The notes below the pieces were generated by a model. It ran no database searches and was not told the origin of the DNA. It worked only from the letters and a program-made list of their open reading frames with translations. A stretch of 64,000 bases of DNA from Acidobacteria bacterium Mor1 (lineage in GTDB: Bacteria > Acidobacteriota > Polarisedimenticolia > Polarisedimenticolales > Polarisedimenticolaceae), in assembly GCA_001664505.1 (NCBI GenBank), contig CP011806.1, positions 174,026 through 238,025 on the forward strand, given 5' to 3'. The translations under genes and the position numbers were made by a program. Positions 35,816 through 42,380 of the stretch are shown piece by piece (the stretch's first letter is position 1; each line of letters starts with the position of its first letter).

Positions 35816-37279
35816 CTAGTGGGTTTGCTGCACCCGGGGCTTCACTTCCCGGAGCACGCGGCGCTTGAGACCCGGAGCGTTCTCCTCGTCCCGGGCGGCC
35901 CACATGCTGCGGACCATCTGACGGTAGCGATCGGTCTCGGCGGAGAGAGGCGTACCGTCCTGGAGGTGCCGGCGTAGGGCACCCTCGCCGCCGTTGTAGG
36001 CCGCGGCCAGCCACTCGACCTGCTGCAGCGGGTCGTCGCTGACGAACTCCTGCTGATGCTTGGCCAGGTACCAGGCCGCCAGATCAATGTTGGTCGCCGG
36101 GTCGGCGAGCTGGCCGGGTTCCAGCTTCATGCCGCGTTTCTTGGCGATGATCTCCGCCGTCGAAGGCAGGACCTGCATGATGCCGGTGGCGCCCAGGTAG
36201 CTGACCGCATCCGGATTCCCCTTGGACTCGAGCAGCGCCATGATCGCCAGCAGTTCGGCGTCGACGCCGTGCTCCACCGCAGCCTGTTCGAACAGCGGGT
36301 TCCAGCGAGCGACCGATTCAGGCAGCCAGGGAATGTCGATCTCCTGGGCAAGTGGTGTGGCTACGAGGGTGCCGGCGAGCAGGACCGCGGCGAAGCCGCC
36401 GGCCAGCAGCAGGGGAGCGAAGGGCCCGGCAGGTGCCGGGCGATCGTTCTGGGTCAGTCGGAGCAATCGGGACATCAGGTTTCCTCCGTGGGCGGCGACC
36501 GCGAGGGTCGGTCCGTCCGAGCGAGATGCTTCGAGGGCCGCGAGGGCCCGGGCGTAGACCTGCCGGTTGCCTAGGATGTCCACGGCGAGGTCGTCCGTGC
36601 AGTACTCCCGGTCGTCGGTGACCTTGCGCGAGATCCACCAGCAAACCGGGTGATAGAACAGGAGCGTTTCGACCAGGCGCTGCAGGGCCAGCACCCGGGT
36701 GTCGTGGCGCGCGATGTGCGCCAACTCATGGGCCAGCAGCGCGCGCACTCCGTCGAACCCCACCGCCGCCTCGAGGCTCCTGGGCAGGATCAGCACCGGG
36801 CGCAGCCAGCCGAAGACGAAGGGGGTGGCGACCTGGTCGGAAACGCGCAGGCGCAGCCTGCCGCGGATATCGAGAGAGCCGGCAAGGGAGGTTGCGGCCC
36901 GGCGCCAGCGGAGGGGCACCTCGTCGGACGCCGCCCGGCTCAGGCGTTGGAGCAGCCACCAGCCCCCGGCCCAGCGCACGCCCAGCACCAGTTCTCCCAG
37001 CAGCCAGATGGCGAAGATCCAGGATGGTCCGCCCTGAGGCAGCCCCCCCTGGAGCGGCGCCGCGGTGCCGCCGTTCCCGAGTCCCGCGATGAGGGCGGTG
37101 ATGGCTACCGTAAGGGGCATGGAGATCAGCGCGGCCACCCCCGCGGCGTAGCGCAGCCGTGGGTTGGCGGTCATCTGCCGCAGCAGGGCGTAGGCCAGTC
37201 CGATGACCAGGCCCTGGAGCAGGAAGGCCCACAGCGCCGTGGACAGGGCGGCGGTGATGCGCAGGATCCATTCGTTCAT
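35816..37279 (-). CDS. M56 (BlaR1-like) membrane metalloprotease fused to a lytic transglycosylase domain
   Basis: A 487-residue fusion. The N-terminal 290 residues are an M56/BlaR1-type membrane protease: three hydrophobic segments before residue 105 and HELAHIARHD with His184, Glu185 and His188. A further helix near 295-320 (PLLLAGGFAAVLLAGTLVA) leads outside. The remaining part, about 333-430, is a soluble-lytic-transglycosylase domain with catalytic Glu351 in ALLESKGNP, GIMQVLPSTA, and AAYNGGEGALRRHL. Ordinary BlaR1 ends in a beta-lactam-binding domain; here a wall-cleaving domain takes that place. It overlaps the BlaI-type gene by an ATGA, so it most likely inactivates that repressor when the outer domain senses wall state. 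Confidence 0.88.
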   Translation of the reverse strand: MNEWILRITAALSTALWAFLLQGLVIGLAYALLRQMTANPRLRYAAGVAALISMPLTVAITALIAGLGNGGTAAPLQGGLPQGGPSWIFAIWLLGELVLGVRWAGGWWLLQRLSRAASDEVPLRWRRAATSLAGSLDIRGRLRLRVSDQVATPFVFGWLRPVLILPRSLEAAVGFDGVRALLAHELAHIARHDTRVLALQRLVETLLFYHPVCWWISRKVTDDREYCTDDLAVDILGNRQVYARALAALEASRSDGPTLAVAAHGGNLMSRLLRLTQNDRPAPAGPFAPLLLAGGFAAVLLAGTLVATPLAQEIDIPWLPESVARWNPLFEQAAVEHGVDAELLAIMALLESKGNPDAVSYLGATGIMQVLPSTAEIIAKKRGMKLEPGQLADPATNIDLAAWYLAKHQQEFVSDDPLQQVEWLAAAYNGGEGALRRHLQDGTPLSAETDRYRQMVRSMWAARDEENAPGLKRRVLREVKPRVQQTH

Positions 37280-37665
37280 TTGCCGCCTCCTTTCTTTTCC
37301 ATGCTGTCCAGCAGCCGCCGGATCTCGTCGATCTCTTCGGGACTGGCCTTGCGCGCGGAGAGGGCATGCAGCGCCAACTGTCCGGCGGAGCCGGAAAAGG
37401 CGCGCTGCATCAGGTCGTCGACCAGCGCCTTGCGGGTGACCCGCGGAGTCCTTGCCGGCGTGTAGGTGTGGGTTCGCCGGCTTTCGTCCCGTTCCAAGAG
37501 CCCCTTGCCGACCATGATCTGCATCAGCTTCAGTACGGTCGTGTAGCCGCTTTCGCGGCCCCGGGCGGCGAGCAGATCGTGGACCCGGCGCACGGTGGCG
37601 GGGCTTTCCTCCCACAGCACGCTCAGGATCTCCAGTTCGGCCTCGGTCGGTTTCGGCAGACTCAT
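37276..37665 (-). CDS. blaI-like: BlaI/MecI/CopY-family transcriptional repressor
   Basis: A 129-residue winged-helix repressor: PTEAELEILSVLWEESPATV, a recognition helix in YTTVLKLMQIMVGKGLLER and the RRTHTYTPAR wing with the usual protease-sensitive region after it. Family members dimerise on dyad operators and are cleaved through an M56 partner. The ATG at 37665 has GGAGGA directly upstream. It is translationally coupled to the M56-transglycosylase gene. Two matching dyads overlap its own promoter, so it should repress itself and its partner. Confidence 0.93.
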   Translation of the reverse strand: MSLPKPTEAELEILSVLWEESPATVRRVHDLLAARGRESGYTTVLKLMQIMVGKGLLERDESRRTHTYTPARTPRVTRKALVDDLMQRAFSGSAGQLALHALSARKASPEEIDEIRRLLDSMEKKGGGK

Positions 37666-37682
37666 GCTTCCTCCCAGGCCCA

Positions 37683-37723
37683 GTATTACGAACTGCTTCG
37701 TAGATGTCAACGAAGATCTTCGT
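37683..37723 (-). promoter_or_regulatory. promoter of the blaI-like operon with twin operators
   Basis: On the minus strand TTGACA (37705-37710) and TAATAC (37683-37688) form a -35/-10 pair with a 16-bp spacer. Two dyads of the form ACGAA-N4-TTCGT, at 37688-37701 and 37710-37723, lie 22 bp apart (two helical turns) and cover the spacer and the upstream edge of the -35. The first extends to TACGAA-CTGC-TTCGTA; the second is a perfect 14-bp palindrome. Confidence 0.7.
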
Positions 37724-37784
37724 ACTTTGTGACGCAAGTGCGTAATCGGCCGGTCCGATGCCGAGTCGGGGAGTTCGTGGGGCC

Positions 37785-39227
37785 TTAGGAGCCTTCGCCT
37801 GCGGGAGGGGCGTAGAAGGACACCCCGCGCAGGTTCTCGTCGACCTGCAGCGGCACCTGGAGCCGCGGGAAGGCCCGCTGCTCGCAGTCGTCCCGGTCGC
37901 ACAGGCGGCAGGTGGTGCCGATCGGGACCAGCGCGTCCTTCTGATCGACGTCGACGGCGTCGGCGTAGACCATCCGCTTGGCGTGGCGCACCTCGCAGCC
38001 CAGGGTGATCGCCTGGATCGCCTTGGGCGCCTGGTAGCCCCGGGCTCCCTTGGCCACGGTGCGGGCGACGCAGAAGTAGACCGCGCCGTCGGGCATCTCC
38101 GAGAGCTGCTTGGTGATGGTCCCCGGCGTGAGGAAGGTGGTGTGCAGGTTCCAGCGGGGGCAGGCGCCGAAGCGGGAGAGCTTGATACCCGATGAGCTGA
38201 AGCGCTTGGAGATGTTTCCGGCGACGTCCGCCCGCACCAGGTGGAACGGGATTCCCTCGTTGCCTTGCTTGCGCAGGGTCGTCAGCCGGTGACAGACCTG
38301 TTCGAAGCTGGCGCCGAAGCGGTTCTCCAGCAGGTCGATGTCGTAGCGGGTGCGGCGCACTTCGTCGATGAAGCGCTCGTAGGGCATGACCACCGCGCCG
38401 GCGAAGTAGTTGGCCAGGGCGATGCGGGCCAGCCCCCGGGAGCTGTCGGCGGTCAGGGTCGCCTCGCTCCGGGTCAGTTCATCGAGCAGGGGCGAGTGCT
38501 GCACCAAACCGATCTGGTGGGCGATCTGGAACTTGCGGCTGCTGCGGGGGAGCGCCTCGGACAGGATCAACAGCTTGCGCTGTGGGTCGAAGCGGCGCAC
38601 CGCGCCGCCGTCGGCCGAGGAGTCGACGTATTCGATGCGGATCCCGTGAACCTCCCGCAGGTAGCCCGAGAGCCCGTGGTACATGTCGTCGGGGCGCAGG
38701 TCCGCCTGCTTCCACAGGTCGGTGGCCGCATCCTCCAGCAGCGGGAAGTAGTTCTCGTGGGCGTGGATGAAGTCGGTGACCTCCTCCGACGGCAGGCTCG
38801 AGTAGTCGACTCCGGGGAGATCCCGATCCTCCGATAGCTGCGAGGCCAGGCTCAGCGCCGACTCCCGGGTGCTGCGGAACACCTGGTAGAGCTGGATCAC
38901 CGCCCGGGCCAGGGTGGGGGAGCTGAGGGCGAACTCCCGGACCTCGGTGGAGTTGAGCCCGTGGCGGTCGAAGGCGGGGTCGCCGAAGACCTCCATCAGG
39001 TCCGAGGCGACCCGGGCGTCGTCCTCGGCAGCGAACTGTTGGAGGTCGAGCTGGAACAGCTCGGCCAGTTTGAGCAGCAGATTCGCGCTCAGCGGGCGGC
39101 GGTCGTGCTCGATCAAATTTAGGTAACTGGGGGAGATCCCCAGCATCTCCGCCAGTTTGGTCTGTCGGAGGTTTCGGGCCCGGCGCAGGGCCCGGACCCG
39201 GCTCCCCAGGCGTGCAGTTTCTGCCAT
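37785..39227 (-). CDS. RamB/ScfR-type transcriptional regulator
   Basis: A 480-residue regulator with an XRE-type helix-turn-helix (residues 1-65, LRQTKLAEMLGISPSYLNLIEHDRRPLS region), a central IrrE/ImmA-like domain whose protease motif is degraded (AHQIGLVQH instead of HExxH), and the Cys-rich C-terminal DUF2083 domain (FGACPRWNLH and CRLCDRDDCEQRAFP). Family members sense short-chain acyl-CoA or acetate status: RamB in actinobacteria controls aceA and aceB. It is divergent from exactly these two genes here, so control of the glyoxylate shunt is the obvious role. A GGAGAA Shine-Dalgarno precedes the ATG. Confidence 0.92.
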   Translation of the reverse strand: MAETARLGSRVRALRRARNLRQTKLAEMLGISPSYLNLIEHDRRPLSANLLLKLAELFQLDLQQFAAEDDARVASDLMEVFGDPAFDRHGLNSTEVREFALSSPTLARAVIQLYQVFRSTRESALSLASQLSEDRDLPGVDYSSLPSEEVTDFIHAHENYFPLLEDAATDLWKQADLRPDDMYHGLSGYLREVHGIRIEYVDSSADGGAVRRFDPQRKLLILSEALPRSSRKFQIAHQIGLVQHSPLLDELTRSEATLTADSSRGLARIALANYFAGAVVMPYERFIDEVRRTRYDIDLLENRFGASFEQVCHRLTTLRKQGNEGIPFHLVRADVAGNISKRFSSSGIKLSRFGACPRWNLHTTFLTPGTITKQLSEMPDGAVYFCVARTVAKGARGYQAPKAIQAITLGCEVRHAKRMVYADAVDVDQKDALVPIGTTCRLCDRDDCEQRAFPRLQVPLQVDENLRGVSFYAPPAGEGS

Positions 39228-39244
39228 TCGGCGTTCTCCGGTTT

Positions 39245-39269
39245 TTTACAGCGTTGACAAGTTTACAGC
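39245..39269. promoter_or_regulatory. direct repeat TTTACAGC upstream of the RamB-type gene
   Basis: TTTACAGC occurs at 39245-39252 and 39262-39269, start points 17 bp apart, 18 to 42 bp upstream of the regulator's start codon. A TTGACA lies between the copies on the plus strand. Position suits autoregulation. Confidence 0.4.
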
Positions 39270-39339
39270 CTTGGCTCGTAAAAGCCAGGACCCGTTTGCG
39301 GGCTGAAAACCAATGTCTCGTTGACTCTCGCCGTTCATG

Positions 39340-39349
39340 TTGCAAATTT
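39340..39349. promoter_or_regulatory. TTGCAAATTT, candidate RamB/ScfR-type site before aceB
   Basis: The reverse complement AAATTTGCAA is close to the TTTGCAAA-containing sites I recall for RamB and ScfR-type regulators. It lies about 105 bp before aceB, next to a TTGACT at 39321-39326. The match is by memory of the published consensus. Confidence 0.4.
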
Positions 39350-39452
39350 ATGTTTTCACGGACTCTCGTCAGCGCCCTCAGGGGTGATCGGGCCCCGGGA
39401 AGCCCCGGCGGGGCCCGGGAGGGGCCGAAACGGCCGAGAAGGAGCGGAATCG

Positions 39453-41048
<1,596 letters not shown>

Positions 41049-41084
41049 GCCTCGGGCCTTTTCCCGGATCTGTAGGAGTGACCG

Positions 41085-42380
41085 ATGTCGAAGCACAAGA
41101 GCGCTGAAGAGCTGGCCCGCAACTGGGCCGAGGACGCCCGCTGGCAGGGGATCGAACGTCCTTACTCGCCGGAGGACGTGGTCCGTCTCCGCGGCAGCGT
41201 CAAGGTCGAGCACACCCTGGCCCGCCTCGGTGCCGAGCGGCTGTGGGAGCTGATTCACAAGAACGACTACGTCAACGCACTGGGCGCCATGACCGGCGGC
41301 CAGGCGGTCCAGCAGGTCCAGGCCGGCCTCCAGGCGATCTACTGCAGCGGCTGGCAGGTCGCCGGCGACATGAACGAAGCGGGGCAGACCTACCCCGACC
41401 AGAGCCTCTACCCGGCCAACAGCGTCCCGTCGCTGGTGCGCCGGATCAACAACGCCCTGACTCGGGCGGATCAGATCGACCACGCCAACGGACTCAACGG
41501 CGAGGCACCTCACTGGTTCGCGCCGATCGTCGCCGATGCCGAGGCCGGTTTCGGTGGCGTGCTCAACGCCTACGAGTTGATGAAGGGCATGATCGAGGCG
41601 GGCGCCGCCGGCGTGCACTTCGAGGACCAGCTCTCCTCGGCCAAGAAGTGCGGCCACCTCGGCGGCAAGGTGCTGGTGCCGACCCAGGCCGCGATCGACA
41701 AGCTGGTCGCCGCGCGCCTGGCTGCCGACGTGCTCGATGTGCCGACGCTCCTGATCGCTCGCACCGACGCCAACGCCGCCGGACTTCTGACCTCCGACGT
41801 CGACGAGCGGGACAAGCCCTTCGTGACCGGCAACATGACCGCCGACTCCTTCGTCGAGGTCAAGCCGGGTCTGGATCAGGCGATCTCCCGCGGCCTTTCC
41901 TACGCTCCCTACTGCGACCTGATCTGGTGTGAGACTTCCCATCCGGATCTGGCCGAGGCCAAGCGCTTCGCCGAGGCGATCCACGCGAAGTTCCCGGGCA
42001 AGAAGCTGTCCTACAACTGCTCGCCGTCGTTCAACTGGAAGCGCCACCTGGACGACGCCACCATCGCCCGCTTCCAGCGGGAGCTGGGCGCCATGGGCTA
42101 CGCCTTCCAGTTCGTGACCCTGGCCGGTTTCCATGCTCTGAACACCTCGATGTTCGAGCTGGCTCTGGGCTACGGCAAGACCGGCATGGCCGCCTACTCT
42201 CAGCTCCAGGAGAAGGAGTTCGCGCTGCAGGAATCCGACGGCTTCCGCGCGGTCAAGCACCAGGCCTTCGTCGGCACCGGATACTTCGATCAGGTGAACC
42301 AGGCGATCACCGCCGGCAAGTCCTCCCTGAGCGCCCTCAAGGGTTCGACGGAAGAGGAGCAGTTCTCCAAGGCGAAGTAG
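41085..42380 (+). CDS. aceA: isocitrate lyase
   Basis: A 431-residue isocitrate lyase, splitting isocitrate into succinate and glyoxylate (EC 4.1.3.1). The catalytic loop KKCGHLGGK has Cys189; other family markers are the [11 protein letters not shown]-terminal segment, [23 protein letters not shown] and [10 protein letters not shown]. An AGGAG lies before the ATG. With aceB it allows growth on acetate, fatty acids or other C2 sources. A strong intrinsic terminator follows at 42433. Confidence 0.97.

Follow-up and report, generated by a model that had tools for sequence, protein, structure and literature searches.

A BlaI-paired M56 protease fused to a lytic transglycosylase domain, a possible wall-glycan switch in Acidobacteriota and Myxococcota

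The genome of Acidobacteria bacterium Mor1 codes for an M56 zinc protease of the BlaR1 type whose outer part is an SLT lytic transglycosylase domain, with a blaI-type repressor gene in the same operon. We give about an even chance to our best explanation, a BlaI/M56 proteolytic switch whose transglycosylase domain senses wall glycan and whose main output is its own operon, making it a wall homeostat. BlaI-paired M56 proteins are widespread, and in the literature searched the receptors of this kind with a characterized signal are beta-lactam receptors; the M56-SLT fusion, with both active sites intact in two phyla, is a testable case for what other M56 receptors sense, and possibly a direct route from glycan state to transcription through proteolysis. 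The window (the whole stretch of DNA analyzed, 64,000 nucleotides) contains the fusion gene and its parts as follows.

35816..37279, minus strand: M56-SLT fusion gene, 487 aa (translation, Pfam M56 and SLT, fold matches)
36476..37279, minus strand: TM1 to TM3 and predicted cytoplasmic M56 zinc protease domain, residues 1-268 (Pfam, hydropathy, BlaR1 alignment, fold)
36716..36730, minus strand: HELAH zinc motif, residues 184-188 (translation; both His and the Glu are invariant across 24 fusions)
36605..36607, minus strand: Glu225, candidate third zinc ligand corresponding to BlaR1 Glu242 (invariant in 24 fusions; BlaR1 alignment; role from PMC9834060)
36356..36412, minus strand: TM4, residues 290-308, joining protease to outer domain (hydropathy 2.13)
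35900..36307, minus strand: SLT lytic transglycosylase domain, residues 325-460 (Pfam SLT at 329-440; likeness to MltC, MltE, and Slt70; fold)
36227..36229, minus strand: Glu351, candidate SLT catalytic residue (aligns with the MltE Glu; invariant in 24 fusions)
35987..36001, minus strand: AYNGG motif, residues 427-431 (all but the first G invariant in 24 fusions)

The reading frame opens with an ATG at 37279, closes with a stop ending at 35816, and has 487 codons without an internal stop. A preliminary description had reported HELAHIARHD, Glu351, GIMQVLPST, and AYNGG in one frame, and all are there in the translation, with H184, E185, and H188 at the positions given; both families lie far above their Pfam cutoffs (Peptidase_M56 PF05569, E=7e-23, 81.7 bits against a cutoff of 31; SLT PF01464, E=3.6e-23, 81.8 bits against 21.3). 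The idea that two genes were joined by assembly or by a frameshift can be dismissed, as fusions ∼40% identical over nearly the full length are present in many independent genomes, which excludes a local assembly join, and GC3 is uniformly high along the gene (0.78-0.96), which leaves a frameshift unsupported. The fusion is thus real, conserved, and not an assembly artifact.

Hydropathy reveals four transmembrane segments, and the loop charges (+3 and +6 for the cytoplasmic loops, −6 for the outer domain) predict that the M56 protease is inside the membrane and the SLT domain outside. An AlphaFold2 model built from a shallow alignment has a mean pLDDT of 76.8 and a pTM of 0.54, with low confidence in the hinge at residues 285-313. 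Residues 12-266 of the model match BlaR1 (PDB 8exs, Z 17.7, root mean square deviation [rmsd] 5.0, 243 aligned), and residues 317-466 match the lytic transglycosylase MltC (PDB 4cfo, Z 15.8, rmsd 3.3, 150 aligned), which answers the call in the preliminary description for a structure prediction of the outer part.

Both halves retain the residues expected of working enzymes. The zinc ligands of BlaR1 are His201, His205, and Glu242, with Asp246 and Arg294 close by (PMC9834060), and a profile alignment spanning HEXXH to Asp pairs H184, E185, H188, E225, and D229 of the fusion with His201, Glu202, His205, Glu242, and Asp246; R271 is paired with Arg294 by position, outside that alignment. All six fusion residues are invariant across 24 aligned fusions. 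The SLT domain has the ES, GxMQ, and AYNxG motifs of family-1 lytic transglycosylases, with Glu351 aligned to the Glu of the MltE motif ESGGNPNAVS, and residues E351, S352, S360, G363, G366, Q369, P372, T374, Y428, N429, and G431 are invariant in the same 24 fusions. Among six close pairs, dN/dS is 0.06-0.21 for the SLT part, indicating purifying selection, and 0.09-0.51 for the protease part. This residue conservation supports a working transglycosylase, and we infer that the SLT domain is active.

The fusion is found in dozens of relatives. A search of 100 relatives yielded full-length homologues in genomes G004 and G027, plus three from a different family, and a six-row profile search found stop-free, whole-length fusions in 22 of 396 Acidobacteriota genomes, one further genome having a match with an in-frame TGA. 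Fusions are also present in at least five Polyangia (Myxococcota; L046, L047, L187, L188, and L189), and no whole-fusion match was found at E≤1e-88, a strict cutoff that misses distant fusions, in 398 Pseudomonadota and 392 Planctomycetota genomes. All 24 aligned fusions, from two phyla, have both the M56 and the SLT domain. In a tree of M56 sequences, family f32 falls together with named Holophagaceae/Geothrix sequences. The SLT label requires five to six changes on M56 trees, and the well-supported branches force at least two, while a single fusion clade is not rejected by the AU test (p 0.32). One Polyangia metagenome-assembled genome codes for a triple M56-SLT-M23 fusion (L047:2055-4052; Peptidase_M23), with protease, transglycosylase, and LytM-type peptidase in a single chain.

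The repressor gene and its promoter lie upstream of the fusion gene.

37276..37665, minus strand: blaI-type repressor gene, 129 aa (PF03965, 6.4e-25; compared with PDB 2g9w and MecI 1sd6)
37709..37724, minus strand: operator-like dyad 1, TACGAAGATCTTCGTT (exact pattern absent from the rest of the genome)
37687..37702, minus strand: operator-like dyad 2, TACGAAGCAGTTCGTA (exact pattern likewise confined to the blaI promoter)
37682..37710, minus strand: sigma-70-like promoter, TTGACA-17-AATACT, interleaved with both dyads (1 found against 0.1 expected)

The BlaI protein scores 88.2 bits against PF03965 (cutoff 22.6), and its gene overlaps the fusion gene by 4 bp, ATGA being common to the end of one and the start of the other; alignment with MecI shows no clear equivalent of the Asn-Phe cleavage site. 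The proposed coupling to BlaI holds well beyond this genome, with a blaI open reading frame (ORF) directly upstream of 24/24 aligned fusions in two phyla, and likewise in L187. In G004, a 348-aa predicted secreted protein without a Pfam match (L034:5562-6605) overlaps the fusion stop and is possibly a third operon gene. Elsewhere in the window (37785-42380), the divergent neighbors of an ScfR/IrrE-type regulator are malate synthase and, downstream of it, an isocitrate lyase-like gene, which make an ordinary glyoxylate-shunt cluster.

The two 16-bp dyads are spaced by 22 bp and overlap the blaI −35 element and the −35/−10 spacer. Tandem dyads 21 to 23 bp apart also precede blaI in G004, G027, L046, and L187; in L047 a pair of such dyads stands farther apart, and Holophagaceae fusion loci have CTACAC....TTGTGTAG-like sites instead. 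In an exact-pattern search, which degenerate operators would escape, TACGAANNNNTTCGTW is restricted, in the window's genome, to the blaI promoter preceding the fusion, and it is similarly confined to the fusion locus in the G004, G027, L046, and L047 genomes. In G007 it marks a different blaI-M56 pair with another outer domain, and the operator is therefore uninformative about the signal. Five other sites in the window's genome differ by one mismatch and were rejected as BlaI targets: three fall within likely genes, one lies in sequence that resembles a tRNA gene terminus, and the last is an isolated, unpaired site preceding an ORF. The Geothrix operator pattern also matches exactly at the fusion locus only; with one mismatch permitted, a backwards-read control yields an equal number of matches, and we therefore make no regulon claim there. 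The layout of repressor, receptor, and promoter supports a BlaI/M56 switch, and the uniqueness of the operator points to the operon itself as the evident output of the circuit.

Above cutoff, the window's genome has six genes of each family, BlaI and M56, which pair one to one at six loci. The outer domains of the six pairs include SLT, an AhpC/TSA thioredoxin, and ankyrin repeats, and three have no Pfam match outside M56; among further M56 proteins, the added domains include TonB_C and a carboxypeptidase-regulatory-like domain. Because the six pairs differ in this way, the fusion is a variant within a known receptor class, one member of a modular BlaI-M56 family and not a new category. The other pairs in this genome have different promoter dyads, e.g., TACTAAaatcTTAGTA, which suggests that the paralogous circuits are insulated from one another. 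The thioredoxin-bearing M56 protein (L203:1461-3071; G000:C1, ∼4443-4445 kb) adjoins a blaI gene with TACTAAaatcTTAGTA dyads and is possibly a redox version of the switch, and a second blaI-paired M56 protein has C-terminal ankyrin repeats (L204:1361-2788; G000:C1, ∼4954 kb). In L042:3699-5717 and L044:3034-5058, a polysaccharide deacetylase replaces the sensor of a blaI-paired M56 protein, possibly another wall-glycan theme, and at L039:3347-5581 the outer part of the M56 protein contains numerous repeats of the type RLVEFRIHGVSPEFVQG and has no Pfam match, with shorter versions in L043.

How the parts would act together can be proposed by analogy with BlaR1. Dimers of BlaI would sit on the two dyads and hold the blaI/M56-SLT operon low, as the dyads and promoter suggest. 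The M56 protein is predicted to cross the inner membrane four times, with its zinc protease facing the cytoplasm and its SLT domain lying outside at the peptidoglycan, where glycan in a particular state, such as uncrosslinked strands or strand ends, would fill the SLT groove. Occupancy of the groove would shift TM4 and the protease as in BlaR1, leading to BlaI cleavage, and derepression of the operon would then supply more BlaI and more membrane-anchored transglycosylase. Since the exact operator is at its own promoter only, the main product would be BlaI plus the transglycosylase, and sensor and effector would be one chain. That the SLT domain would sense glycan is proposed because the BlaR1 domain in that position senses and because outer domains are widely exchanged; repression, BlaI cleavage, and the signal are what we infer for the fusion system. 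A further version, a one-protein wall homeostat in which the BlaR1-type receptor reads wall damage (uncrosslinked or cut glycan) through an active transglycosylase and, by way of BlaI, governs nothing but its own production, is tentative, and we regard it as possible but short of an even chance.

As the operators indicate the fusion's own operon as the evident target, the SLT domain may act as an output, either alongside a sensing role or in its place. The domain could then be an effector only, with BlaI/M56 sensing membrane state, a partner, or the TM2-TM3 loop, and the operon supplying a tethered transglycosylase. Confinement of the exact operator to its own promoter makes the SLT enzyme the evident output, the SLT catalytic residues are retained, and an extra C-terminal stretch of ∼120 aa in Holophagaceae fusions could serve as sensor. 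However, the sensor occupies the corresponding position in BlaR1/MecR1 (PMC9834060), M56 outer domains are swapped widely, as sensors would be, and fusions of the window's own class have almost nothing besides SLT outside the membrane; we consider this reading unlikely, roughly a one-in-four prospect. A point against the preferred switch model is the harm that a transglycosylase could do by increasing its own amount, unless its activity is somehow limited.

It is improbable that the SLT domain is instead the sensor for a wider regulon, with BlaI also using degenerate sites to repress wall or resistance genes far from the operon. Classical BlaI does govern separate effector genes, the exact pattern is blind to degenerate operators, and the third ORF of G004 overlaps the fusion stop, but none of the five one-mismatch sites in the window's genome is a convincing operator, and the annotated loci have no linked beta-lactamase or penicillin-binding protein (PBP) gene. 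The SLT domain is very improbably a noncatalytic anchor that keeps the receptor at the wall, for although glycan binding by a lytic transglycosylase fold would be enough to localize it, neither Glu351 nor any other residue of the SLT motifs varies among 24 fusions of two phyla.

The preferred reading, a glycan-sensing BlaI/M56 switch, is closest to BlaR1/MecR1 with BlaI/MecI of Staphylococcus and Bacillus licheniformis. The fusion shares with these the M56 gluzincin protease (HEXXH...E), the transmembrane and protease fold, an adjacent BlaI-type repressor gene, and an outer domain placed after the last transmembrane segment, which in BlaR1/MecR1 is the sensor (PMC9834060); the BlaR1 protease cuts BlaI directly (PMC9834060), and as far as layout tells, the fusion works like BlaR1. 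However, the outer domain of BlaR1/MecR1 is a class-D beta-lactamase-like penicillin binder, whereas that of the fusion is an SLT lytic transglycosylase with no transpeptidase or beta-lactamase Pfam match, and the fusion operon has no beta-lactamase or PBP target gene. Because it lacks the penicillin-binding sensor and scores far below the equivalog cutoffs (NCBIfam blaR1_generic, 59.5 against 400; BlaR1 and MecR1, ∼17 against 1200), the fusion belongs to the M56 family and is not BlaR1/MecR1 proper. The preliminary description knew of no characterized system of this design, and the literature search, which covered few subscription papers and no bioRxiv preprints, likewise turned up no description of an M56-SLT fusion; the design is apparently undescribed in that literature, and the two tandem dyads interleaved with the blaI −35 and −10 elements are also new here.

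The outer domain resembles the family-1 lytic transglycosylases MltC, MltE, and Slt70 in its Pfam match, catalytic Glu, motifs, and fold, but those enzymes are lipoproteins or soluble, whereas this one is tethered by the last transmembrane segment of a protease receptor and would be under BlaI control. A signal from the wall to BlaI has precedent in a peptidoglycan dipeptide coactivator reported to act on BlaI/MecI in the cytoplasm (PMC3305447). That system similarly ties wall turnover to BlaI derepression, although there a cytoplasmic fragment binds BlaI, whereas here the protease itself carries a wall enzyme as its outer domain. Lastly, the other BlaI-M56 pairs, with thioredoxin, ankyrin, TonB_C, or polysaccharide deacetylase domains, have the same layout of repressor and M56 receptor and differ in the outer domain and, where examined in the window's genome, in the promoter dyad sequence, which suggests that BlaR1-type receptors swap their outer domains, resembling histidine kinases.
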